From Pseudoips prasinana (lineage: Eukaryota > Arthropoda > Insecta > Lepidoptera > Nolidae), in contig OX621259.1 of assembly GCA_951640165.1 (NCBI GenBank), positions 868,001 through 932,000 of the forward strand: a DNA stretch of 64,000 bases, in the 5' to 3' direction. Shown here one piece after another: positions 7,218-41,725 of the stretch. Each line of letters begins with the position of its first letter. Positions within the stretch are counted from its first letter, which is position 1. A program made the position numbers and the translations under genes. The notes under the pieces were generated by a model. The model did not search any database, was not told the DNA's origin, and saw nothing but the letters and a program-made list of their open reading frames with translations.

Positions 7218-7590
7218 TGACTGCCTCGTTGGTCTAGCGGTAGCGTGTTCAACCGCAGAAAATGAGGTCCTGGGTTCAAAGGGATCGGGCCAAAAAGGGA
7301 TATTGGCATTTTTCCGTAAAAAGAAATTTCTCAGTATCAGCCCTAAGTCTGAGAGTAGGCGGTATTACACCTCCGTGCCTCGGAGAACACGTAAAGCCAT
7401 CGGTCCTGTACCTGACCTCTTCCGGCCGTGTCGCTAGTCGTCCCATCGGATCATTAGAGTGATAGAATAGAAAGTGCCCCTGTGTTTACGCAAAAACTTG
7501 TGCAATATAATATGTCTCTCGCAGATGGCTAATCTCTATTGAGACTGGCCGCCGTGGCCGAAATTCGGCTAGGAGGACATTATTATTATT
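7218..7590 (+). repeat. SINE family 1 (tRNA-derived), full length
   Basis: The head GACTGCCTCGTTGGTCTAGCGG holds an A box (TGGTCTAGCGG), and GGGTTCAAA is a weak B box. The body includes CATCGGTCCTGTACCTGACC, and the end GGCTAGGAGGACATTATTATT carries a TTA-repeat tail. At least four other copies occur in both orientations. Confidence 0.85.
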
Positions 7591-7824
7591 ACATGTTGAT
7601 AAATTATTAATTTGGATAAAACTGAGATTTTGCCGGTTTGAGTGGGTCCTTTGCGTCTATAGCAATAACTTACTATGACGTTCACTGTAGTTATCCTAGC
7701 AGGATTTCACTGCCTCATCGGACAGTAATCAAACGCAATGCGATAATAGTTGTAAGCTTTTGCTTTCGAAAATTGATCGTCGAAAGATACGAGAGTGCCT
7801 ACTTCACAAAACATTTGATAATAT

Positions 7825-16334: not shown

Positions 16335-17018
16335 CGGCTCGCTTACATGAATATTAAAAGATATTTAACCGTTTATTATTTACCTACATCAACTCTTTGA
16401 TTTTGCCGCCATATTAGTGTAACTTTGGATATAATCAGGACGGAATTTGAAATATCCCCTACTGTTCATATGAGCCTAGTAGGTACATTATTCATATTTT
16501 TTTTTTGTATGTATGCACTTTCTATTCCATCACTCTCATGATCCGATGGGACGACTAGAGATACGACCGGAAAGAGGTCAGGCACAGGAACGACGGCTTT
16601 ACGTGCTCTCCGAGGCATGGGGGGTGTAATATCGTCAACTCCCAGACTTCGGGCTGATACTGAGAAATTTCTTTTTACGGAAAAATCCCATAATCACTTT
16701 TTGGCCCGAACCGGGAATTGAACCCAGGACTTCATTATTCCCATAATCACTTTTTGGCCCGACCCGGGATTTGATCCCAGGACTTTATTATCTGCAGTTG
16801 AACACGCTACCGCTAGACCAATGAGTTATACACGAACACATTCAAATGGCGCGGCGCGCGGGGCCCGAATATTAAAAAATATTTAACCATTTATTATTTA
16901 CCTACATCAATCCTTTGTATTCGCCGCCGTATTAGAGTTCCTTGCGACAAAATCAGGACGGAATTCGAAATGTCCCCTAATGTTCATATGAGCCTAGTAC
17001 ATTATTCATATTTTTTCG
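16335..17018. repeat. Direct repeats of about 150 bp flanking a SINE
   Basis: The block AATATTAAA...TTATTATTTACCTACATCAA...AATCAGGACGGAAT...GTTCATATGAGCCTAGTA...ATTATTCATATTTTTT occurs at about 16,350-16,503 and again at about 16,868-17,020, with a SINE family 1 copy between. The two are roughly 85-90 percent alike by eye, too diverged and too long for a target duplication. Confidence 0.75.
16505..16835 (-). repeat. SINE family 1 with duplicated B-box module
   Basis: Minus-strand copy lacking the GGAGGACATTATT tail. A 53-bp block beginning CCATAATCACTTTTTGGCCC is duplicated (16,688-16,740 and 16,741-16,793); it spans the B box (GAACCCAGGACTT and GATCCCAGGACTT). The head GGTCTAGCGGTAGCG lies at 16,805-16,820 on the minus strand. 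Confidence 0.85.
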
Positions 17019-22467: not shown

Positions 22468-22487
22468 GTGAGTTTATAGGTGATAAT

Positions 22488-22862
22488 AATAACGTCCTCC
22501 TAGCCGAATTTCGGCTACGGCGGGCAGTCTCACTCGAGATTAGCCATCTGCGCGGGACATATTATATGTCCAAGTGGACAGGAGCACTTTCTATTCCATC
22601 ACTCTCATGATCCGATGGGACGCCTAGCGCACGACCGGAAAGAAGTCAGGTACAGGACCGACGGCTTTATGTGCTCTCCGAGGCAAGGGTATATAATACC
22701 GCCAACTCACAGACTTCGGGCAGATGCTGAGAAAATTTTCTTTTTACAGAAAAGTCCCAAAATCACTTATGGTCCAACCCAGGATTTGAACCCTGGACCT
22801 CGTTTTCTGCGGGTGAACACGCGACCACCAACCCACAAACGAGGCAGTCATTATTGAAGATT
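22488..22862 (-). repeat. SINE family 1, full length
   Basis: Minus-strand copy with complete tail (ATAATAACGTCCTCCTAGCC) and head (ACGAGGCAGTCA). It starts only about 20 bp after host exon 3. Confidence 0.85.
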
Positions 22863-23007: not shown

Positions 23008-23080
23008 AAAATACAAAATCAATATTTAGTGTTAATTCCGCTAATTGTCAGTTTAATCATGCTGGGATGCAATTTGCACC
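23008..23080 (+). repeat. Left arm of 73-bp perfect inverted repeat
   Basis: Identical to the inverse of 23,596-23,668. The arm covers AATATTTAGTGTTAATTCCG to GATGCAATTTGCACC. The arms bracket a Penelope-like 3' region. Confidence 0.95.
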
Positions 23081-23668
23081 GCCCTCCCGCCCGCAAAAAC
23101 GTGCACATGCAAGAAGGACAATACAAAAAGCAAATTACATGCGCCAGTACGATACCCAACACGTGTTACGGTCCTCCACGGACCATTCTCAAGGGCTGCT
23201 AACTCGTCGAGTGCTCGAAGGAGACTAAAAGCCAACGAGGCGAGCGCTCTTTTATATACTACCAACCGCATGGACAATTATTTCTAACTACCCCCAAATA
23301 TTCGTAGTAAAGGAGATGAAACTAAATTTGTTTGGTCATTCAACAATGCAAAACTATTACTGCTATGTTTTAATATTTCTAATTGTTCCAACACACATAA
23401 CCGGAAACTTTTATCACTACTATGTAAAATATTATACGTATTATTGTCGCCCAAGGAATGGCCAGTTTCAATTAAATGTTTGGCGTAATGAGATTTATCA
23501 GGATGGCCATTCCTATAAGCAGCTACATGCTCTTTATACCGTGTTTCAAAATTTCGGCCTGTCTGACCTATATATACCGCGTCACAATCATCGCAGGTGC
23601 AAATTGCATCCCAGCATGATTAAACTGACAATTAGCGGAATTAACACTAAATATTGATTTTGTATTTT
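23081..23668 (-). pseudogene. Penelope-like retroelement, GIY-YIG endonuclease end
   Basis: On the minus strand, from about 23,612, one frame reads AICTCDDCDAVYIGQTGRNF, ETRYKEHVAAYRNGHPDKSH, YAKHLIETGHSLGD and on through LEQLEILKHSSNSFALLN to a stop near 23,290. The CDDCD-x-VYIGQTGR-x-x-x-TR-x-x-EH spacing and HL-x-x-TGH block identify the GIY-YIG nuclease that ends Penelope-like reverse transcriptases (Tyr of VYIG and Arg of TR are present). The RT part is missing because the coding region enters the inverted-repeat arm at 23,596. The rest toward 23,081 is noncoding and includes a stretch with TATATAAAAG on the minus strand. Hence a truncated copy, retaining the C-terminal domain only. Confidence 0.85.
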
Positions 23669-24629: not shown

Positions 24630-24945
24630 ATAAATAATAATGTCGTCCTAGCCGAATTTCAGCTACGGCGGCCAGTTTCAATGGACATATTATAGTGCAC
24701 AAGTGTGTGCGCAAACACAGGAGCACTTGCTATTCCATCACTCATGATCCGATGGGACGACTAGCAACACGGCCGGAAAGAGGTCAGGTCCAGGACCGAA
24801 GGCTTTATGTGCTCTTCGAGGCACGGGTGTATAATAACGCCAACTCCCAGACTTCGGACTGATACTAAGAAATTTTTCTTTTTACAGAAAAAATCCAAAA
24901 TTACCTTTTGACCCGACCCAGATATTGAACCCAGGACCTCATTAT
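24630..24945 (-). repeat. SINE family 1, truncated at the tRNA-like head
   Basis: Tail GTCGTCCTAGCCGAATTTCA through body to GAACCCAGGACCTC, then TTATTTATTTTTATTTTATT replaces the A-box end. Confidence 0.8.
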
Positions 24946-29712: not shown

Positions 29713-30085
29713 GGACTGCCTCGTTGGTCTAGCTGCAGCGTCTTCACCCACAGAGAACGAGGTACTGGGTTCAAATCGCACCAAAAAAGTGATTTTGGGA
29801 CTTTTGTGTAAAAAACAAAATTCTCAGCATCAGCCTGAAGTCTGGAAGTTAGCGATATTATACCCCCGTGGCTCGGAGAGCACGAAAAGCCGTCGGTCCT
29901 ACACCTGATCTCCTTCTTCGTATCGCTAGGCGTCCCATCGGACCATGGGAGTGATGGTATAGAAAGTGCTCCTCTGTTTGCTCACACACTTGTGCACTAT
30001 AGTATGTCCCACGCAGATGGCTAATCTCTATTGAGACTCGCCGTCGCCGCCGGAATTCGGCTAGGAGGACATTATTATTATTATA
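29713..30085 (+). repeat. SINE family 1, full length
   Basis: GACTGCCTCGTTGGTCTAGC head with GGGTTCAAATCGC B box and GCTAGGAGGACATTATTATT tail. It ends 24 bp before the target duplication of the 11-kb transposon. Confidence 0.85.
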
Positions 30086-30116
30086 GTTACTGTACCTGCT
30101 CCCTACTGGCCAGGGA

Positions 30117-30642
30117 GTTACCATCAGAATGGCTGGCCCAAACGAGATATGTACATGAGACCATGCCCACTGTTTATTACCTAATTGCTACTATTTACTA
30201 CCAGTAATGAAATAATTGCTACCTTTGCGTTAAGAAATATATCAAAGAAATAAAGTGGTCAGCCATTCTGACGTCAGGTTGGCCGGCCACTTCCAAGTTC
30301 TCATAGTTTTAGCGTCATATTAACAACATTTTTAATTTATATATTCACTACCTATTTGCTACCTTAACATATCTTGACACAAATTTATAGAGGTCCTATA
30401 AAAATATAAAATAAAAGCCATTAAAACGCCTGCGCATCAACTATTTATTTAAATCGTTTCCTCAGAATAATGCTAACAGTGTTTTGCAGGCACTTAGTGG
30501 CTTATGGGCAACTTGTTTCTTTATATCCATAGTAAACTATTATGCATTTAGAAAATTATATACTTATTTGTATATCGCATCTATTCTTAGGAATATGGGT
30601 ACTTGGGTATGTACTTGGAGAATTATTAAATTGGTCTTGATC
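30117..30642 (+). repeat. Left terminal inverted repeat (copy A, 526 bp)
   Basis: Matches the inverse of 40,665-41,186 along its whole length with a few substitutions and about 4 bp of net gap. It contains ACCATGCCCACTGTTTATTA, TGACGTCAGGTTGGCCGGCC and AACGCCTGCGCATCAACTAT. Similarity stops sharply after GGTCTTGATC. Confidence 0.95.
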
Positions 30643-30710
30643 TAGTGAAAAGCTGAGACGGGCTGCTGTACAAATTGTAACATTAATAGTTGACACTTAC
30701 ATGAAACTTA

Positions 30711-31207
30711 ATGTGCGTGTCCCCAGCTTCCGAAGCGAAATTCTAAGTATGCCATATTTTAGAGCATAATTTGAGCAATTTAAAGTTTCAGTCATAGAAT
30801 TGGAGCAATCACAACTTCGTTTCTATGATTTGTTAAATGTGTGTAAGCTGGACAAACGTGTCTCCAGCTGACACATGCCGTTGGGGCAAAACCTGTGATG
30901 TTTGGGTTTTAAAATATAGTCAAAAATTTTGCTCATAATTGGAGCAATGAGAGCCAAAAAATCTAGCCATCACACTCAAATATTATTTAAACTACGATCA
31001 TAAAACCATGTGCGAGCTGGAGACACGTGTCCCTGGCTTACACATGTGTATCTTCGCAATTATTTAAGCTACGATTATGTATTATACCTCAAAATTCTGA
31101 GCAAAATTGCAGTATAAATTTTTCCAAACCTTAGCTCGTATAGTTTTTGAGCTACGAAGCAATAAGTATGTGTAAGCTGGGGACACGTCACACGGGCTTA
31201 CACATCG
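30711..31207. repeat. Array of four CACGTG-centred palindromes
   Basis: Palindromes of the form TGTGTAAGCTGG-x-GACACG with its inverse CGTGTC-x-CCAGCTTACACA lie at about 30,711 (right half only), 30,838, 31,008 and 31,169. Spacers share GAGCAAT and CTACGA motifs, so the array is a diverged tandem repeat with a period of about 125-170 bp. It lies just inside the left terminal repeat, where a transposase binding array would be expected. Confidence 0.8.
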
Positions 31208-31471
31208 TGAATTACGATAACTATATAAGATGCAGTTTTCTTTTAAAGATCAAATAACATGTTATAATTGGAGCACACACGAGGCATAATTTCAAATCTC
31301 TAGGCCTTTTACTTTCACAATTATAAGCCAAATACGCTTTTCCCGCAAAAATTTTTAAAATATTAGGTCGGGAGCGGTCAACCGCGACGTTGTCGTTCCG
31401 TGCATTATACAATTGCTATCGATTAGGATTTTTTCAAAAATATGTGTCACATTACATTCACAACTAATAAA

Positions 31472-32755
31472 TCATCCTGTCATCAGATATTTTTCCATAT
31501 TAAAATACTGCTTCAAAATTTCAGTTCGACTCTGATAAATATTGGGCAGTGAAGCTTTATCTATAAGCATCTTGATAAATTGACAGTAAATTTGATTATT
31601 AGTACAAAACCCATCTAAAACCGCAACAGCGATCGCTTGTGACACAGAATCAAAAGCGCAGGTATTCTTTACGATTACTTACATTGTTTCCACCAGTAAA
31701 TTTTGTTCGAAATCCGTTCTTTAATAAACCAACGTTGACTGTCTTTTTGGAAGTCTTATTTCGTTTTGTTGCTAGTCCTCGCCAGTTTTCTATTAATCTT
31801 GGATTTTCAGTGAAAATAGATTCTTCTGCATGTTCTATATACCTATCAATTTTCATATTCTTAGTTTCCGTTTTTTTCATTGGAATCTTTGTTTTTGTTG
31901 TTTTAATTTCTTTTAAGTTACTGATAGCAACTTTTAATTCACCAGATAATAATTCTAAATGATTTATGAAAAAACTCAACTATACGATATCTATCACTCT
32001 TACAGATTATCCTATATAAATACCTTTTCACGTTTTTAAAATAACTTTCCACATTCGATGACGTTGGATTAGTTATGCTTGAATTGTGTAAATTTTTCAT
32101 AATATTTGACCACAACGGAAGTTGACCTACAAGTCGCATTAAGGTGTTCAAAAAGTCTGGGAAATAATGCAAGTTATCATGGCCATAGTTAAAGTCTCCT
32201 TCAGTTAAGGCTATGATCAACTGTTCGTATTCCATTGCATTGTAGAACCATTCAGGATTTTTCAAAGGTGGTCCTTCCTCCCGAACACTTCCAAGCGAAG
32301 CTTCTAGACCATGGAAAGAAGAGTTGTTCAATGATTTGAAGCTTGTTATTTTGTCACTATCTTCAATATTAATTTCAGATTCAGCTTGTGAAAAAGAGCT
32401 CAATTTTTTCAGCATAATTCTTGCTTCTTCAGGTCTTGTATTGTTACCTGCACTGTCTACACCATCATATTTATTTAAAGATAATGTGATCAAGTCTATA
32501 ACAATTTGTTTCAATTTGTCATAATCCTCGCATTTTTTACTCTTTATGTAAAAAAACTTTACCTGTTGATCAATATGTTTAAAACAAGGTAAATTAAATA
32601 AAATCAATGAAAATGCGAATGTAGCATTTTTCTTGAGTAGACTCTTGTTTTTCTAATTTCATAAATGAATCATTAATGTATTCTTTGGTACCTAGTGTTA
32701 AATTTTGTAAATGCTTTTACAGCAGCCCCAATCAAAATATTATTACAGGAAGCTC
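31472..32755 (-). pseudogene. Transposase of the 11-kb element, C-terminal half
   Basis: On the minus strand from about 32,755 it reads ILIGAAVKAFTKFNT, then KEYINDSFMKLEKQESTQEK with CYIRI. A frameshift leads to FNLPCFKHIDQQVKFFYIKS, PEWFYNAMEYEQLIIALTEG and LPLWSNIMKNLHNS with SSNVESYFKNVKR. After another shift it ends with VIVKNTCAFDSVSQAIAVAV and QSRTEILKQYF before a stop at 31,472. The order CYIR, LPLWS, S-x-x-VES-x-F is one I associate with large uncharacterised insect transposases. The final NTCAFDS-x-x-Q resembles the Cys box of ubiquitin-type cysteine proteases. Two or more frameshifts make it inactive. Its first half lies 6.5 kb away at 39,296-40,481 on the same strand. Confidence 0.65.
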
Positions 32756-32760
32756 TCCAA

Positions 32761-33512
32761 GCTACCGATAATTATGATAGAAATGATAGTGGTATTAACA
32801 CGGGTGAAGAAAATGTAATAGATAATTTAGAAAATAGTGAAACCATTGTAAACACTCCAAATGCAGAAATAAATATAAAACAATCGTCGAAAAATAAATC
32901 AAAAATGATTTTTTCAACTTCTGACGAATCAAATACTGAAGCTATAAATGATACTCCGATGTGTGATGTCAATACTCGTTCTAGTAGAAAAGATAAAGTT
33001 GGTCTTGTAGAAAAATATATTGATCACGGAACGGAGAAAAAGAAAAAACTGATTGCGTCTACCTCTGGAGATTCAAACATAGAAGCTGTTTCTTCTGTGT
33101 ATTGTATTAATACACGTTCTAATAAAATAGATAAAGTTGATCAATTAGTAAAAGCTTGTAGTGAGCAAAGAATTGAACAAGTATTCACCAATATTACTGA
33201 AAATAAAGACAATGAAGTAGTTATAAGTCCTACATTAGCTCGAAAAAATAATGAAACTAGTTCTGAAACCAGTTACAATTCCTGCGAAGAATGTGATTTT
33301 ATTGATGGAAATGTGAGAGATAATATTGAACCGTCCATATTTAATAACATTGAAGTTATCAAGTGCCTCAATGACATGGTGGATAAAGTATGTGATGAGT
33401 TAGATAAACCCTCAACGAAAGATAAAAGTCGTGCAGCAAGAGGAAAGAAAAATTTAGAATCGGAGCTTCCTAAGATGTCTACAATAATTGAAGCGGACGA
33501 CACTACAATGGA
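32761..33512 (+). pseudogene. Second gene of the 11-kb element, first part (charged, low complexity)
   Basis: One open frame with no stop from about 32,695 to the LINE junction near 33,512. It is rich in Asn, Ser, Glu, Asp and Lys: NDSGINTGEENVIDNLENSE, MIFSTSDESNTEAINDTPMC, then a partly repeated block (RSSRKDKVGLVEKYIDHGTE and RSNKIDKVDQLVKACSEQ) and KDKSRAARGKKNLESELPKM. The first 20 codons overlap the transposase on the other strand, so the true start is unclear. The frame is cut by a LINE at 33,513 and resumes at 37,923 (6-bp duplication AATGGA at both points). No known domain is recognised; the charged composition would suit a DNA- or chromatin-binding accessory protein, which is a guess. 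Confidence 0.6.
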
Positions 33513-34556
33513 CGGCACTCCGATTGGCCATGGAGCGGAAATCACTAACGGTAATGGTGTTACTGGATTTCAGCAGCGCTTTTAATTCAGTTGACTTTGA
33601 CATCCTTCTCGGTATCCTGTCCTCTCTAAATGTCTCATCTTCAGTAATTGTGTGGTTTGACTCTTATCTTCAAGGGCGCTTGCAGTCGGTGCGCCACGAC
33701 CAGGCTACCTCTGAGTGGTGTAATCTTACTGCAGGTGTTCCTCAAGGTGGCATACTCTCTCCTCTTCTCTTCTCGGTATTTATCAATGCTATTACCAAAA
33801 TTATCTCTTACCATCTTTACGCAGACGACTTGCAGCTTTATCGTCACTTTAAAGTGGAGGATTTTAGTTTAGCCATAGCTGCCATCAATAGTGATCTTGG
33901 TAACATTAGTGATTGGGCCAAAAGCTTTGGCCTTCTGGTAAACCCATCTAAGTCACAAGCTCTCATTATTGGTGGCCAGTATATGCTTAACATGATAGCA
34001 CATATATGTCCACCTCCAGTAATCTACGATGACGTTTCCATAACTTATTCCAAATGCGGCAAAAATCTTGGAATATTTATTGACTGCACATTATCATGGT
34101 CCGAACACGTTGCAGAAGTAAGCAGGAGAGTATACTGTTCATTTAAGTCCCTAAAACGGCTACAGAAATTCTTGCCTTTTCGCACTATAATCTACCTTGC
34201 TCAATCACTTCTACTTCCTCTTCTTGACTATGCCGATGTCTGTTTCCTGGATGCAAATGAAGAACTTCTCAACAAGCTCGAACGTGTACAGAATTTATGT
34301 AGGTATCCGATTCATTTACGGCCTCCGAAAGTATGACCACGTGTCCGAATTTCGGTCGCAGTTGAATTGGCTACCTATTCGGAGACGTCGAGATTGTCAT
34401 ATTCTGTCATTCCTCTATTCTATCCTTCATAACTCCAATGCTCCAACATATCTCCGTGAACGCTTTGAGTATTTAGTCCCGCGAGAAAAAATCTGTCGTT
34501 CAACCACCTCACTTCTTCTTCGAATGTCTTCTCACTCCTCAAGCCGGTATGCCCGG
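33513..34556 (+). pseudogene. Jockey-type LINE ORF2, 5' truncated, inserted in the element's second gene
   Basis: Reads RLAMER, then VLLDFSSAFNSVDFDILLGI (first catalytic Asp), TAGVPQGGILSPLLFSVFIN, YHLYADDLQLYRHFKVEDFS (YADD), KNLGIFIDCTLSWSEHVAEV and SLLLPLLDYADVCFLDANEE. After a frameshift near 34,300 it continues FIYGLRKYDHVSEFRSQLNW and stops at SSSRY, where the inverted duplication begins. It is the same family as the intact LINE ORF2 at 53,720-56,662 but clearly diverged. Its 3' UTR resumes within 37,690-37,921 (GGTTTGCTGGAAGAGAAC, GTGTGCAATAAAGTATAAAT). Confidence 0.85.
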
Positions 34557-34960
34557 TACCCCATAATATTACTTAAGTCATAATTTGTCTATTAACTAGT
34601 CGGCAACCAACGTTTCTTTACCTAAGATGTTCAATGTTCACCCAGCTTTTTCCATGAAACCTGGCAAATTACATAAATCATGTTAAAATTAATTAAAAGT
34701 ATATATTAATCCCAGCATAGAACAGTAGTTTTCATCCAAGCACAATAATGTTTGCACCGATACTAAGTTCCATAGTCACTTGGGCATTCCCCTTTCACTG
34801 CATTACTACTTTTTAGCATATGCACGGCAGCATGGGCGGCTTGAACAGCTCACTTGGGCAACCACTGCCCATACGACAAAGTAGAAAAAATATCGTAGTT
34901 CTTTTGGTACTCGCCCAGTGGAGCAGTAAAAGTATAGACGACATTCACAGCGTCCCTGGC

Positions 34961-35482
34961 GTTACCGTCAGAATGGCTGGACCAAACGAGATATGTACAT
35001 GAGACCATGCCCACTGTTTATTACCTAATTGCTACTATTTACTACCAGTAATGAAATAATTGCTACCTTTGCGTTAAGAAATATATCAAAGAAATAAAGT
35101 GGTCAGCCATTCTGACGTCAGGTTGGCCGGCCACTTCCAAGTTCTCATAGTTTTAGCGTCATATTAACAACATTTTTAATTTATATATTCACTACCTATT
35201 TGCTACCTTAACATTTCTTGACACAAATTTATAGAGGTCCTATAAAAATATAAAATAAAAGCCATTAAAACGCCTGCGCATCAACTATTTATTTAAATCG
35301 TTTCCTCAGAATAATGCTAACAATGTTTTGCAGGCACTTAGTGGCTTATGGGCAACTTGTTTCTTTATATCCATAGTAAACTATTATGCATTTAGAAAAT
35401 TATATACTTATTTGTATATCGCATCTATTCTTAGGAATATGAGTACTTATTTACTTGGAGAATTATTAAATTGGTCTTGATC
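34961..35482 (+). repeat. Terminal inverted repeat, copy B (in the palindrome arm)
   Basis: A 522-bp copy equal in length to the right terminal repeat and in opposite orientation. Mirror position checks exactly (34,961 + 41,186 = 76,147, the sum of the outer palindrome borders). Confidence 0.95.
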
Positions 35483-35665
35483 AAGTTATGGTACAATATT
35501 TAATAACCATGCCTTGAAATCTCTGATTATTTTTATTTATAGCTACCCACAATATTCACAACTGAGATGATAAATGATAATGTCCACCTTTTCTCATTTG
35601 TTTCTGACGTACACACGTAACAAGTGTCTTTTTAGTTATTATTCAATAAAGAGTGTGTTTTTACC

Positions 35666-36851
35666 ATGAAACGGGGTAGACGGTTAACCGAATCTGGAAA
35701 ATCAAAAAAGTGTCATTGCAAAGTACGAAAATTATTATTCTGATAAAAATGATCTTTCGTCACCGTGTAACCCAGTTTTTAGTAACATTAGTGAACTTTT
35801 ATTATACAAAATGTCCGAAAAAGCTATTTATCAATCTGTTAAGAAAAATTACGATTTTTTTTGATAATAGCAGACCTGTTTGTGATAAATCCCTATCCGA
35901 AAAGGATAAAATGATTACAACAGCCCCAACTCCTGACTGCAAGATATTTGATTTTATCGTAGATTTTTATCAATGGCAGAAAATCCAGCCAATCATACGC
36001 TGCGTAAAAAGAAATAACGAAAAAATATCAACCTTTAGGAAGATTCTTTTGCCGAAACATCAGTGGGCTAATATCTTACGAGAAGAAATTTGGAAGACAA
36101 TCCGAAGTCCGTGTAGCTGGATTTTCAAAAATTATTCGATTAAGGATGAAGATTGTTTTATATATTCTGGAGCTTTAAAGTTATTATCAACTGGTTAACT
36201 GATAAAATTGATAAATGTACTTGTACGATACACAATTTTATTAATGAATGTTCACCTAATTTGCTGAAAAAGATAAAGCTTTCCTCTTTTCAACGACGTG
36301 AATTTGCTGATGAGTTAAAATACGAGTCTGCTATTGTAGTGAAGAATAAAATAACGAATACTTAGTGATATGATAGTGGCGAATGTAGAAGACAGGGAAC
36401 CGACTCATTTACTCACTGTCGGTTGTCTACGACAAATAAAGTACGAAACCAGGAAAAGCGCTTACTACGATTCTAATCCAATACTAGCTTTATGGATTAT
36501 GCATATAATGGCACCCTATAAAGAGATAATAAAACTCGTATCGCTTTTGCCTCTGAACTTTTATGATTGGTCACCCGCGCAAGATGAATATTATAAAGAT
36601 TGTGGTAAAATAGCGAGAACTGTTTTGAGCATTGATGCTACTGGTAGCGTTTTCAAACCAGTTGGAGCGGGAAATTTAAATTTATCAAAGCTTTCATTAA
36701 ATTCTTCTATTCGTGTGTAATAAAATCTTGTAATGATGGAAGCAGTGTTCCAATAGCTCAACTCATTTCTGACAGTCATACGTTACATACAATATGCAAA
36801 TGGCTCGATAGTTGGGCTAAAAACAAAACTCCTGATATTCTTGATTATTAG
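35666..36851 (+). pseudogene. Transposase N-terminal half, duplicated copy in the left arm
   Basis: Mirror copy of 39,296-40,481. The 162-residue frame (35,710-36,198) is identical in translation to that of the other arm, and the frameshifts are shared, so the gene had decayed before the duplication. The one protein difference I see in the 36,370-36,720 block is LNFYDWS here against LNFYYWS on the right. Confidence 0.85.
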
Positions 36852-37603
36852 ATACGGTTTCAACTACTAAGCCGGGTAAAGGAGTTTCGGTTCCATCATC
36901 TAAATATCTTATTTCCAGCGGTTGCTTTTGTCGTTTTGGATCAACTATTTTCTTAAAAGCTTTTGACTTTGATTTTTGCTTGCCGTCAAGTATATCTTTG
37001 TCATCATCTATCAACTCCATTTCCGGAGCACCATCTAACACCAATTTCAGTTCTTCCACAAGATGAGCTGTCTTCTCGACTAGTATAGACGTATTGAAAT
37101 CTTGCGTCGCCTCTCTCATTCTTTCATCAATTAAATCAATCTGTACGACATTCTTTTTTGTACGTGGTTTCCTATTCACTTTTTAACTGGTTTGTTTTCA
37201 TCTGTAGACTTATCCGATTGGATTTTAGGCTTGACAACTCTTCCTCGCCTTATGACAGTTATGACTATAGATTTAACGCTAGTAGCAGAACTAGTTTGCA
37301 GAGTTTGGTTTTTTTAGGTTTGAAGTCATCATCGCTATCACTCGACAAATTATACTCACCATTTACAGATGTTTGATAAGCTACAGTATCTGGTTCATAG
37401 TTCGCTGAAGCCTTTACTTGATCAAATATATCGTTATCTTTTTTGGTTCGTGGAGAGAAAAATGATTCTGGTATCTTAGTACGTCTTGAACGGGGCATTC
37501 TAATACGGTTCTTTCTCTCTCTTTCAATGTCTCTGTAACAAGTGGCTATTGATTTTGGGGTCCTTTTTATTTGAGATTCTGGCGAAATCTTTTCTTCTTC
37601 CAC
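36817..37603 (-). pseudogene. Second gene C-terminal part, duplicated copy in the left arm
   Basis: Mirror copy of 38,112-39,330, on the minus strand. It holds one 216-bp unit where the right arm has three. The last 120-residue block differs from the right arm at about four residues (for example MREATQDF against MREAMQDF and NNQEYQEF against NNQEDQEF). Confidence 0.85.
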
Positions 37604-37624
37604 GACGTCGACTCTGTCATGTTT

Positions 37625-37922
37625 GTATAGGCCTGAACAGTAAATGACCCGTCATACCGGCTTGAGGAGAAGCAGGTTTATGTATATATTTATTTACCAC
37701 TGGTAGATTTTATATTGTTATATTTTTGAATTATTTTCATTACCTTAGTTCATAATTATTTCAAATTGTTGCGCGCTGTTTGTAACCCATTACATATAAG
37801 CTCTCACTCTAACAAAGGTTTGCTGGAAGAGAACTCATAGTTGAGTTAAGCTCGCCTGTGTACATGATATATCTTATCTTTTATGTAAATATGTATTTCT
37901 GTGTGCAATAAAGTATAAATAA
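37625..37922 (+). repeat. Palindrome spacer (first part): LINE remnants
   Basis: 37,631-37,676 is an inverted scrap of LINE ORF2: on the minus strand it reads SSSRYDGSFTVQA, which continues the LINE broken at 34,551. From about 37,690 to 37,921 the LINE 3' UTR runs forward. The adjacent opposite orientations point to template switching at the inner border of the palindrome. The host gene of the element restarts at 37,923. Confidence 0.7.
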
Positions 37923-39330
37923 ATGGAAAAAGTTATTGCACCAAATATAGATAATGATTCTGATTTAAACTTCGAAAATAAAGATAAAGACAATCCTAAA
38001 AATAATTCCGTTCGTGACAAAACGACTACAGAATTTCCTGAAATTCGTAGAAAACGCAAACTTTTTTCTCCTTAAGATAATCAAACTGATAAACATGACA
38101 GAGTCGACGTCGTGGAAGAAGAAAAGATTTCGCCAGAATCTCAAATAAAAAGGACCCCAAAATCAATAGCCACTTGTTACAGAGACATTGAAAGAGAGAG
38201 AAAGAACCGTATTAGAATGCCCCGTTCAAGACGTACTAAGATACCAGAATCATTTTTCTCTCCACGAACCAAAAAAGATAACGATATATTTGATCAAGTA
38301 AAGGCTTCAGCGAACAATGAACCAGATACTGTAGCTTATAAAACATATGTAAATGACGTGTATAATTTGTCGAGTGATAGTGACGATGACTGTTACAGAG
38401 ACATTGAAAGAGAGGGAAAGAACCGTATTAGAATGCCCCGTTCAAGACGTACTAAGATACCAGAATCATTTTTCTCTCCACGGACCAAAAAAAATAACGA
38501 TATATTTGATCAAGTAAAGGCTTCAGCGAACTATGAACCAGATACTGTAGCTTATAAAACATATGTAAATGACGTGTATAATTTGTCGAGTGATAGTGAC
38601 GATGACTGTTACAGAGACATTGAAAGAGAAGGAAAGAACCGTATTAGAATGCCCCGTTCAAGACGTACTAAGATACCAGAATCATTTTTCTCTCCACGAA
38701 CCAAAAAAAATCACGATATATTTGATCAAGTAAAGGCTTCAGCAAACTATGAACCAGATACTGTAGCTTATCAAACATCTGTAAATGGTGAGTCTAATTT
38801 GTCGAGTGATAGCGACGATGACTTCAAACCTAAAAAAAACAAACTCTGCAAACTAGTTCTGCTACTAGCGTTAAATCTATAGTCATAACTGTCATAAGGC
38901 GAGGAAGAGTTGTCAAGCCTAAAATCCAATCGGATAAGTCTACAGATGAAAACAAACCAGTTAAAAAGTGAATAGGAAACCACGTACAAAAAAGAATGTC
39001 GTACAGATTGATTTAATTGATGAAAGAATGAGAGAGGCGATGCAAGATTTCAATACGTCTATACTAGTCGAGAAGACAGCTCATCCTGTGGAAGAACTGA
39101 AATTGGTGTTAGATGGTGCTCCGGAAATTGAGTTGATAGATGATGACAAAGATATACTTGACGGCAAGCAAAAATCAAAGTCAAAAGCTTTTAAGAAAAT
39201 AGTTGATCCAAAACGACAAAAGCAACCGCTGGAAATAAGATATTTAGATGATGGAACCGAAACTCCTTTACCCGGCTTAGTAGTTGAAACCGTATCTAAT
39301 AATCAAGAAGATCAGGAGTTTTGTTTTTAG
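37923..39330 (+). pseudogene. Second gene of the 11-kb element, second part with coding tandem repeat
   Basis: From 37,923 the frame reads MEKVIAPNIDNDSDLNFENK to KRKLFSP, meets a TAA stop at 38,073, then continues in the same frame through ERKNRIRMPRSRRTKIPESF, FSPRTKKDNDIFDQVKASAN and YNLSSDSDDD. It holds three 72-residue units. A frameshift near 38,840 separates the block with IRRGRVVKPKIQSDKSTDEN, and another leads to PRTKKNVVQIDLIDERMREA, ELKLVLDGAPEIELIDDDKD and LEIRYLDDGTETPLPGLVVE, ending at 39,330. The mix of basic (RRTKIPES) and acidic (DSDDD, DDDKD) blocks suggests a nuclear protein. It lies antisense between the two transposase halves. No known domain is recognised. Confidence 0.6.
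38175..38822 (+). repeat. Three tandem 216-bp coding units
   Basis: Units 38,175-38,390, 38,391-38,606 and 38,607-38,822, each encoding 72 residues from CYRDIERE to SDSDDD with few changes. The left palindrome arm has a single unit, so the array changed number in one arm after, or during, the duplication. Confidence 0.95.
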
Positions 39331-40481
39331 CCCAACTATCGAGCCATTTGCATATTGTGTGTAACGTATGACTGTCAGAAATGAGTTGAGCTATTGGAAC
39401 ACTGCTTCCATCATTACAAGATTTTATTACACACGAATAGAAGAATTTAATGAAAGCTTTGATAAATTTAAATTTCCCGCTCCAACTGGTTTGAAAACGC
39501 TACCAGTAGCATCAATGCTCAAAACAGTTCTCGCTATTTTACCACAATCTTTATAATATTCATCTTGCGCAGGTGACCAATAATAAAAGTTCAGAGGCAA
39601 AAGCGATACGAGTTTTATTATCTCTTTATAGGGTGCCATTATATGCATAATCCATAAAGCTAGTATTGGATTAGAATCGTAGTAAGCGCTTTTCCTGGTT
39701 TCGTACTTTATTTGTCGTAGACAACCGACAGTGAGTAAATGAGTCGGTTCCCTGTCTTCTACATTCGCCACTATCATATCACTAAGTATTCGTTATTTTA
39801 TTCTTCACTACAATAGCAGACTCGTATTTTAACTCATCAGCAAATTCACGTCGTTGAAAAGAGGAAAGCTTTATCTTTTTCAGCAAATTAGGTGAACATT
39901 CATTAATAAAATTGTGTATCGTACAAGTACATTTATCAATTTTATCAGTTAACCAGTTGATAATAACTTTAAAGCTCCAGAATATATAAAACAATCTTCA
40001 TCCTTAATCGAATAATTTTTGAAAATCCAGCTACACGGACTTCGGATTGTCTTCCAAATTTCTTCTCGTAAGATATTAGCCCACTGATGTTTCGGCAAAA
40101 GAATCTTCCTAAAGGTTGATATTTTTTCGTTATTTCTTTTTACGCAGCGTATGATTGGCTGGATTTTCTGCCATTGATAAAAATCTACGATAAAATCAAA
40201 TATCTTGCAGTCAGGAGTTGGGGCTGTTGTAATCATTTTATCCTTTTCGGATAGGGATTTATCACAAACAGGTCTGCTATTATCAAAAAAAATCGTAATT
40301 TTTCTTAACAGATTGATAAATAGCTTTTTCGGACATTTTGTATAATAAAAGTTCACTAATGTTACTAAAAACTGGGTTACACGGTGACGAAAGATCATTT
40401 TTATCAGAATAATAATTTTCGTACTTTGCAATGACACTTTTTTGATTTTCCAGATTCGGTTAACCGTCTACCCCGTTTCAT
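39296..40481 (-). pseudogene. Transposase of the 11-kb element, N-terminal half
   Basis: On the minus strand: MKRGRRLTESGKSKKCHC, a frameshift, SSPCNPVFSNISELLLYKMS, a frameshift, DNSRPVCDKSLSEKDKMITT and NNEKISTFRKILLPKHQWAN. After another shift come CSPNLLKKIKLSSFQRREFA, then EPTHLLTVGCLRQIKYETRK, NPILALWIMHIMAPYKEIIK, ARTVLSIDATGSVFKPVG, and in a last frame KSCNDGSSVPIAQLISDSHT with KWLDSWAKNKTPD. SIDATGS and the ISDSHT block look like the first part of an RNase-H-type (DDE/D) catalytic core. The frame ends at 39,296, where the antisense gene begins; the rest of the transposase (31,472-32,755) would be reached across a 6.5-kb gap, either an intron or a captured insertion. Confidence 0.65.
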
Positions 40482-40664
40482 GGTAAAAACACACTCTTTA
40501 TTGAATAATAACTAAAAAGACACTTGTTACGTGTGTACGTCAGAAACAAATGAGAAAAGGTGGACATTATCATTTATCATCTCAGTTGTGAATATTGTGG
40601 GTAGCTATAAATAAAAATAATCAGAGATTTCAAGGCATGGTTATTAAATATTGTACCATAACTT

Positions 40665-41186
40665 GATCAAGACCAATTTAATAATTCTCCAAGTAAATAA
40701 GTATTCATATTCCTAAGAATAGATGCGATATACAAATAAGTATATAATTTTCTAAATGCATAATAGTTTACTATGGATATAAAGAAACAAGTTGCCCATA
40801 AGCCACTAAGTGCCTGCAAAACATTGTTAGCATTATTCTGAGGAAACGATTTAAATAAATAGTTGATGCGCAGGCGTTTTAATGGCTTTTATTTTATATT
40901 TTTATAGGACCTCTATAAATTTGTGTCAAGATATGTTAAGGTAGCAAATAGGTAGTGAATATATAAATTAACAATGTTGTTAATATGACGCTAAAACTAT
41001 GAGAACTTGGAAGTGGCCGGCCAACCTGACGTCAGAATGGCTGACCACTTTATTTCTTTGATATATTTCTTAACGCAAAGGTGGCAATTATTTCATTACT
41101 GGTAGTAAATAGTAGCAATTAGGTAATAAACAGTGGGCATGGTCTCATGTACATATCTCGTTTGGTCCAGCCATTCTGACGGTAAC
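40665..41186 (-). repeat. Right terminal inverted repeat (copy C, 522 bp)
   Basis: Inverse of the left terminal repeat; ends CCATTCTGACGGTAAC, followed by the duplication GCCAGGGA. Confidence 0.95.
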
Positions 41187-41269
41187 GCCAGGGACGCTGT
41201 GAATGTCGTCTATACTTTTACTGCTCCACTGGGCGAGTACCAAAAGAACTACGATATTATTTCTACTTT

Positions 41270-41325
41270 ATCGTATGGGCAGTGGTTGCCCTAGTGAGCT
41301 GTTCAAGCCGCCCATGCTGCCGTGC
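41270..41325 (-). repeat. 5S-derived SINE tail fragment beside the transposon
   Basis: TATGGGCAGTGGTTGCCCTA with GAGCTGTTCAAGCCGCCCAT matches the 3' part of the 5S-type SINE. The inverse copy lies at 34,825-34,880 in the left palindrome arm. Confidence 0.5.
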
Positions 41326-41587
41326 ATATTCTAAAAAGTAGTAATGCAGTGAAAGGGGAATGCCCAAGTGACTATGGAACTTAGTATCGGTGCAAACATT
41401 ATTGTGCCTAGATGAAAACTACTGTTCTATGCTGGGATTAATATATACTTTCAATTAATGTTAACATGATTTATGTAATTTGCCGGGTTTCATGGAAATA
41501 GCTGAGTGAACATTGAACATCTTAGGTAAAGAAACGTTGGTTGCCGACTAGTTAATAGACAAATTATGACTTAAGTAATATTATGGG

Positions 41588-41725
41588 GTAGAGGTGGCCA
41601 ATCTCAACGGAGTCTAGCTTACTAAGCAGGATATATTGTAGTACATGTGCAATCGTAGGTGCACTACTATTTCATCGCTCTGATTGTCTAATGGGGCAGT
41701 GAACAGTTGATACATCGGCGAACTG
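41588..41725 (-). repeat. SINE family 1-related fragment
   Basis: GAGGTGGCCAATCTCAACGG, GGATATATTGTAGTACATGT and CATCGCTCTGATTGTCTAAT follow the order of the SINE 1 tail (GGCCAGTTTCAATGG, GGACATATTATAGTGCAC) with heavy divergence. Confidence 0.5.

Follow-up and report, generated by a model that had tools for sequence, protein, structure and literature searches.

To our knowledge, the origin of the long mirror arms of foldback elements is still debated. Several described systems come close to the element studied here, and what is said about them below refers to excerpts of the cited sources. Mutator-like elements (MULEs) have target site duplications (TSDs) of 8-11 bp (PMC6446971) and include the foldback-like member Tm1 (PMC3169594, which uses the grouping IS256/MULE transposon family), and complete lepidopteran MULE transposases comprise 313-518 residues (PMC13359780). 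The foldback element Tetris combines mirror-image arms and tandem repeats with TSDs of 8-10 bp (PMC4079207), and Helitrons encode deubiquitinase domains of the VTD or OTU type (PMC9741609). We analyzed a locus in a 64,000-nucleotide stretch of the Pseudoips prasinana genome (the window, positions 868001-932000 of contig C25; 1.126 Gb in 56 contigs), which had originally been predicted to be a complete 11-kb DNA transposon. This 11-kb locus is a rearranged locus and not one complete transposon, and its interesting part is the combination of a transposase family bearing a ubiquitin-specific-protease (USP)-type domain with recurrent mirror forms.

The family resembles Mutator-like elements (Phantom group) in its long terminal inverted repeats (TIRs), in TSDs within the range of 8-11 bp, in foldback-like members, and in a fold match to ISCth4, but it differs by the lack of PF10551 and FLYWCH matches, by the presence of the USP domain, and by a protein length of about 1,000 residues as compared to 313-518 (PMC13359780). 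From P elements and Galileo it is set apart by the lack of a THAP or other P-type Pfam match, by the USP domain, and by some 9-bp TSDs. Mirror-image arms and tandem repeats are shared with Tetris, whereas it is a difference to both FB and Tetris that the mirror forms are tied to a coding family and that one palindrome keeps host flank. Helitrons likewise have a transposon-encoded deubiquitinase-type domain (PMC9741609), but they are rolling-circle elements with other deubiquitinase classes, and here a USP-type domain is found on a DDE transposase.

Architecture of the 11-kb locus

The outer element borders lie at 30117 and 41186, and the ends are inverted copies of each other (30114-30646 and 41189-40661, about 530 bp, 97.4% identity over 533 columns). 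GCCAGGGA adjoins both borders on the outer side; it occurs five times in the window, as compared to 0.58 occurrences expected from shuffles. The original prediction was thus right about inverted ends of some 525 bp and a perfect 8-bp target duplication, and duplications recur at other copies. Its view of a complete 11-kb transposon had to be abandoned, as the locus contains a third TIR copy, a palindrome that extends into the flank, a nested non-long-terminal-repeat (non-LTR) element, and a split transposase gene (Table 1).

The palindrome arms (34557-37540 and 38607-41590) are 2,984 bp long with 30 mismatches (99% identity), and the mirror symmetry continues further inward. On the outer side, the palindrome exceeds the right element end by 404 bp, and this host flank is repeated in inverted orientation inside the locus, with 11 of the 404 positions differing between the arms. 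As the host flank and an inverted GCCAGGGA within it are mirrored, the locus has not moved as an 11-kb unit. The left arm is joined into the non-LTR element between 34556 and 34557 with an overlap of about 1 bp, as judged from reading the junction by eye, and a 45-bp inverted non-LTR piece is joined to ORF2, a second open reading frame, at the palindrome centre.

The transposase gene lies on the minus strand. Its uninterrupted arrangement is found in a related copy, L021, which itself carries stops. According to the alignment, the window lacks 36 bp (L021 positions 2450-2485) that encode the region of the second catalytic aspartate, and ORF2 occupies this gap. The end of the USP domain was not found in the C-terminal piece of the window, where the alignment stops at residue 892, before the histidine box. 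The non-LTR insertion duplicates AATGGA (33507-33512 and 37922-37927) and breaks ORF2 in the window; we infer that 37670-37921 and 33513-34556 belong to one non-LTR insertion. The number of 216-bp tandem copies in ORF2 is unequal between the palindrome arms and higher in L019.

Table 1. Positions of the features of the rearranged locus in the window
Feature	Position	Strand	Remarks
TSD GCCAGGGA, left copy	30109..30116	+	
Left TIR	30117..30646	+	
Transposase C-terminal piece, frameshifted	31367..32735	-	tblastn; P0008 residues 423-892; rest of DDE core and first part of USP domain
ORF2, first part	32737..33512	+	Inserted in transposase gene; contiguous with 37922 onward in L013, L019, and L020
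Non-LTR retrotransposon fragment with reverse transcriptase	33513..34556	+	Pfam RVT_1, E 9e-20 on 33488-34333
Inverted copy of right host flank 41187-41590	34557..34960	-	11/404 differ; includes inverted GCCAGGGA at 34953-34960
Inner, third TIR copy	34961..35486	+	
Mirrored copy of transposase N-terminal piece	35694..36836	+	
Mirrored copy of ORF2 second part	36837..37624	-	Arm to 37540; 37324-37624 mirrors 38091-38391
Short inverted non-LTR piece, palindrome centre	37625..37669	-	37625-37657 joined to ORF2 as in L015
Probable 3' end of same non-LTR insertion	37670..37921	+	AATAAA, A-rich end; not in L013
ORF2, second part	37922..39317	+	Three 216-bp tandem copies (38175-38822)
Transposase N-terminal piece, frameshifted	39311..40453	-	tblastn; P0008 residues 11-413; first catalytic aspartate
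Right TIR	40661..41186	-	
TSD GCCAGGGA, right copy	41187..41194	+	
Right host flank, outer 404 bp of palindrome right arm	41187..41590	+	

A 97-bp TIR query gave 40 matches (the best 40 of 240 candidates scored), 14 of which are on C25, and 20 stretches around part of them were compared. TSDs were read from the flanks of 11 elements of the window family with both ends present. This count omits loci with one end, L017 and L018 (a pair 25 kb apart with gattctta and gattcgta), and the copies at 3.36 and 4.13 Mb, which are segmental duplicates of the GCCAGGGA site. Nine of the 11 elements, at 8 of 10 distinct sites, have an 8- or 9-bp duplication, three of the nine with one mismatch. The duplication is 8 bp long in the window, L013, L015, L016 (at the L015 site), L027, and, with one mismatch, L022; it is 9 bp long in L025 and, with one mismatch each, in L026 and L028. 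No TSD was seen at the remaining two, L014 and L024. Outside the window family, L029 has the 8-bp TSD ATATAGCT if its TIR starts at GTGAA, which is our own reading, and both examined copies of a related family, family A, have 7-bp TSDs.

Transposase family and its USP-type domain

A search with the window transposase, whose pieces were joined by hand, returned six relatives, of which a protein from Diatraea saccharalis ranked first (65% of the query matched at 62% identity), and a profile search returned 29, including proteins from Pieris, Tuta, and Arctia. A third homology search with a broader profile gave only six proteins and no named family, and a scan of viral_contigs with a 164-residue piece gave no relative. 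With 83 of 362 candidates scored, the moth's own genome gave 94 matches to the protein P0001, and over 20 of these lie in frames that run for 1,000 codons or more without a stop. The aligned parts of family A copies agree to 99.8-100%; two complete copies have 6,752 bp, and the TIRs are about 1.1-1.3 kb long in the one copy measured.

Intact relatives encode a protein of about 1,000 residues. Its N-terminal region contains Cys and His residues, its DDE core includes D-x2-H and a helical insertion, and at its C-terminus there is a USP-type domain that has the cysteine and histidine boxes. The boxes for the catalytic cysteine, histidine, and aspartate (NTC..D, HY, and Y/F-D/E-D) were aligned in 13 of the 15 members of set A6, and the domain showed a USP (peptidase C19) fold. 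The transposase of these relatives appears to be fused to a USP-type domain, and this predicted domain probably acts on the transposase or on chromatin by stripping off ubiquitin or SUMO. If true, the fusion would be a case of a cut-and-paste element that carries its own tool against host ubiquitin/SUMO control, and the existence of intact, near-identical copies makes this idea testable. In the open-licence literature, as covered by best-ranked titles and abstract openings, a fusion of a USP domain with a cut-and-paste transposase did not turn up, which is no proof of novelty. Among viral structures (BFVD), the uncharacterised Bracovirus (Bracoviriform inaniti) protein O92526 matched the P0008 model best (E 4e-10); it is possibly a relative carried by a wasp virus.

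The coding family is an IS256/P/hAT-like transposase with a USP domain. Its best fold match is ISCth4, which we take to be an IS256-type transposase, and an IS256-like DDE fold with helical insertion was found. The fold and the conserved D, D, and E residues point to cut-and-paste movement. Fold searches gave no other transposase family for the core at comparable Z, which excludes nothing. No Pfam match identified the transposase in the proteins scanned, nor did NCBIfam for three of them. Neither the PF10551 MULE domain nor FLYWCH matched any of the 15 A6 members or the scanned homologs at E<=1, although HMMER filters may drop remote matches. There was likewise no profile match for the hAT BED finger and dimerisation domain, no KDZ/Zisupton Pfam match at E<=1 in the scanned proteins, and no THAP or other P-type Pfam match in them. 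As the fold search points to the IS256/P/hAT group without singling out one member and no MULE, hAT, KDZ, or P profile matched, we assign no superfamily.

These results bear on several proposals of the original prediction. That the enzyme is not hAT-like and belongs to a poorly described family holds, as neither a hAT profile nor any recognisable Pfam superfamily matched. The C-terminal USP domain had escaped the original prediction. Its suggested closeness to MULE- or Zisupton-type enzymes gains indirect support on the MULE side from the ISCth4 fold match and the 8-9 bp TSDs, and none on the KDZ/Zisupton side, where no Pfam match was found; the profile search that was to reveal the superfamily gave no MULE, KDZ, or P match in the scanned proteins. 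With 9 of 11 TSDs at 8-9 bp, the window family lies within the Mutator-like range of 8-11 bp, and family A has 7 bp. We also assume a resemblance to the NOF lineage, and the RepeatMasker class MULE-NOF presumably may already include such elements. It is a tentative idea, which we would hold with some reserve, that the family represents a distinct, recently active lepidopteran cut-and-paste superfamily with its own USP-type deubiquitinase/deSUMOylase, in which long-TIR copies repeatedly become mirror elements via palindrome formation and arm conversion.

Copies, mirror elements, and history of the locus

The same composite is present at C25:4.13 Mb with a span of 10.8 kb and without about 290 bp near 38061-38350. 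As its left and right flanks are those of the window (about 99.7-99.9% identity), it is a segmental duplicate. At C25:3.36 Mb, the window flanks (97.5-97.9%) enclose a mirror element that is itself interrupted and has lost its centre. Two further mirror elements, L015 (C25:1.21 Mb, target GATTCGTA, TSD gattcgta; arms of 2,295 bp, 98.3%) and L016 (C25:1.23 Mb, same target; arms of 1,521 bp, 97.8%), have the form of foldback elements, with long inverted arms that fill most of the TSD-flanked element. The join of non-LTR element and ORF2 at the window palindrome centre recurs in L015 at its different target site, which implies that the two sites share history. In family B of the same superfamily (42% protein identity to P0001), one of four copies, L036, is mirror-like, with inverted ends of at least 865 bp and 99.9% identity within a 4.5-kb locus. 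L019 and L020 lie 130 kb apart on contig C33, and their outside flanks are mutually reverse-complementary apart from small differences; these surroundings are an inverted segmental duplication.

In 861 bp of the transposase region, the two arms of the window do not differ (0.0%), those of L015 differ by 0.2%, those of L016 and of the 3.36-Mb copy by 0.6% each, and those of the 4.13-Mb copy by 0.8%, as compared to 2.0-2.1% between the window and the 3.36-Mb copy (the stretches of L009 and L018 were too short for the arms tree). Mismatches between the window arms amount to 11/404 in the flank versus 19/2580 in the element (Fisher P 0.0012), and one run of 1,122 bp is free of mismatches between the arms (P 5e-5 for random placement). 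At 4.13 Mb, the left arm has nine private sites, seven of them inside this run, and 25 sites divide left from right arms in both the window and the 4.13-Mb copy. These site patterns support that the transposon arms were homogenised by gene conversion, more than the flank arms; the simplest account is that the right arm of the window converted the left arm after the segmental duplication. The locus seems to catch the birth of a foldback element midway, with an inverted duplication that still holds host flank, a related mirror-only copy beside the composite, and gene conversion visible between the arms. A literature search on palindromes and conversion in transposons gave no papers.

We consider it quite probable that the locus combines a non-autonomous TIR transposon, a nested non-LTR element, an inverted duplication with flank, a segmental duplication, and conversion, in a family with USP-bearing relatives. 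A DDE transposase that generates duplications of 8-9 bp would have placed a non-autonomous DNA transposon with TIRs of about 530 bp at GCCAGGGA. As the alignment shows, ORF2 splits the transposon's own transposase gene, with loss of the stretch for the second catalytic aspartate, and because this stretch is missing, intact relatives probably supplied the enzyme in trans. The capture of ORF2 may have preceded or followed the insertion at GCCAGGGA. A non-LTR element would then have inserted into ORF2. The sequence shows an inverted copy of the right half together with 404 bp of right flank, set into the non-LTR element; this copy would have arisen later, possibly by fold-back repair or template switching. 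The locus was segmentally duplicated along the chromosome, and the 3.36-Mb copy may have lost the segment between the left and the inner direct-repeat TIRs, leaving a foldback element with the same target duplications.

Matching outer TIRs and the perfect 8-bp TSD would also be expected of a single 11-kb transposon moving as a unit from 30117 to 41186, but the palindrome reaches 404 bp into host flank with an inverted TSD copy, the one other composite seen has the same flanks (best 40 of 240 TIR candidates), and the transposase is broken and lacks the second catalytic aspartate region, so that we reject this explanation as hardly credible. Near-perfect large inverted repeats are a known class of assembly artefacts, and a single assembly was examined; the palindrome could have come from a fold-back chimera in a read or from a head-to-head join of two haplotypes. 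In its simple form, this is rejected as very unlikely in view of the 30 arm mismatches, 25 of which are the same at two loci (0.90 and 4.13 Mb), the unequal tandem-repeat number between the arms, and the location of the related mirror elements L015 and L016 between 8-bp TSDs. As these two TSD-flanked mirror elements exist, an independent mirror element (34961-41186) could have landed beside an older element, but the two copies of the 8-mer, at 34953 and 41187, run in opposite directions and not in the same one, so that they are no TSD, and the 404 bp of host flank are mirrored too. We reject this possibility as improbable. Somewhat less remote, yet still unlikely, is that the mirror-only state at 3.36 Mb is ancestral and that 30117-34960 of the window was added later by ectopic recombination. 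The overlapping flank divergences (9/404 and 11/404) and the junction shared between the L015 centre and the left window arm would fit; however, the left half would have to be gained with the same TSD border and an inverted flank, whereas a deletion from TIR to TIR would presumably require one step.

Several observations speak against the sequence of insertion, inverted duplication, and segmental duplication that we favour, or against its USP-bearing relatives. As the flank arms of the window differ at 11/404 positions and the 3.36-Mb flank differs from the right window flank at a similar 9/404, either the palindrome or the segmental duplication may have come first. The mirror at 3.36 Mb could predate the one in the window or have arisen independently, and its deleted centre prevents a check for shared junctions. 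The centre junction common to the window and L015 implies that exchange or transposition between sites also happened. For L015 and L016, which are copies of a single site, the divergence from each other (1.1-1.4%) stands out less from that between their own arms (0.2 and 0.6%). The terminal-sequence search suggested by the original prediction recovered other copies with 8-bp duplications; no empty site was present among the right-flank matches (best 40 of 828 candidates scored). The USP domain is missing in P0006, L040 is truncated, and P0002, P0003, and P0007 end before it. The sequence similarity to USPs is weak, with PF00443 at E 0.006 in 1 of 15 A6 members; the best USP match of a PDB profile search had E 0.13, and when the query was restricted to the USP domain, nothing reached E<=1.

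Flanking sequences

Among the same best 40 right-flank matches, five cover the first 160 bp, all of which abut element ends, and the other 35 begin at query position 146 or later, where a dispersed repeat starts. This repeat, with many genomic copies, occupies the right flank from about 41352 (41352-41700). The left flank at 29714-30083 is another dispersed repeat with further window copies at 7219-7591, 22480-22850, 24633-24909, and 16515-16702. A 661-bp segment elsewhere in the window (23008-23668) has perfect 73-bp inverted ends and no obvious target duplication in the adjoining 15 bp at each end. Close to the left TIR on its inner side, at 30834-31205, there are three imperfect copies of about 43 bp with a spacing of about 165 bp, two of which are also inverted-repeat partners and may be candidate subterminal binding sites.

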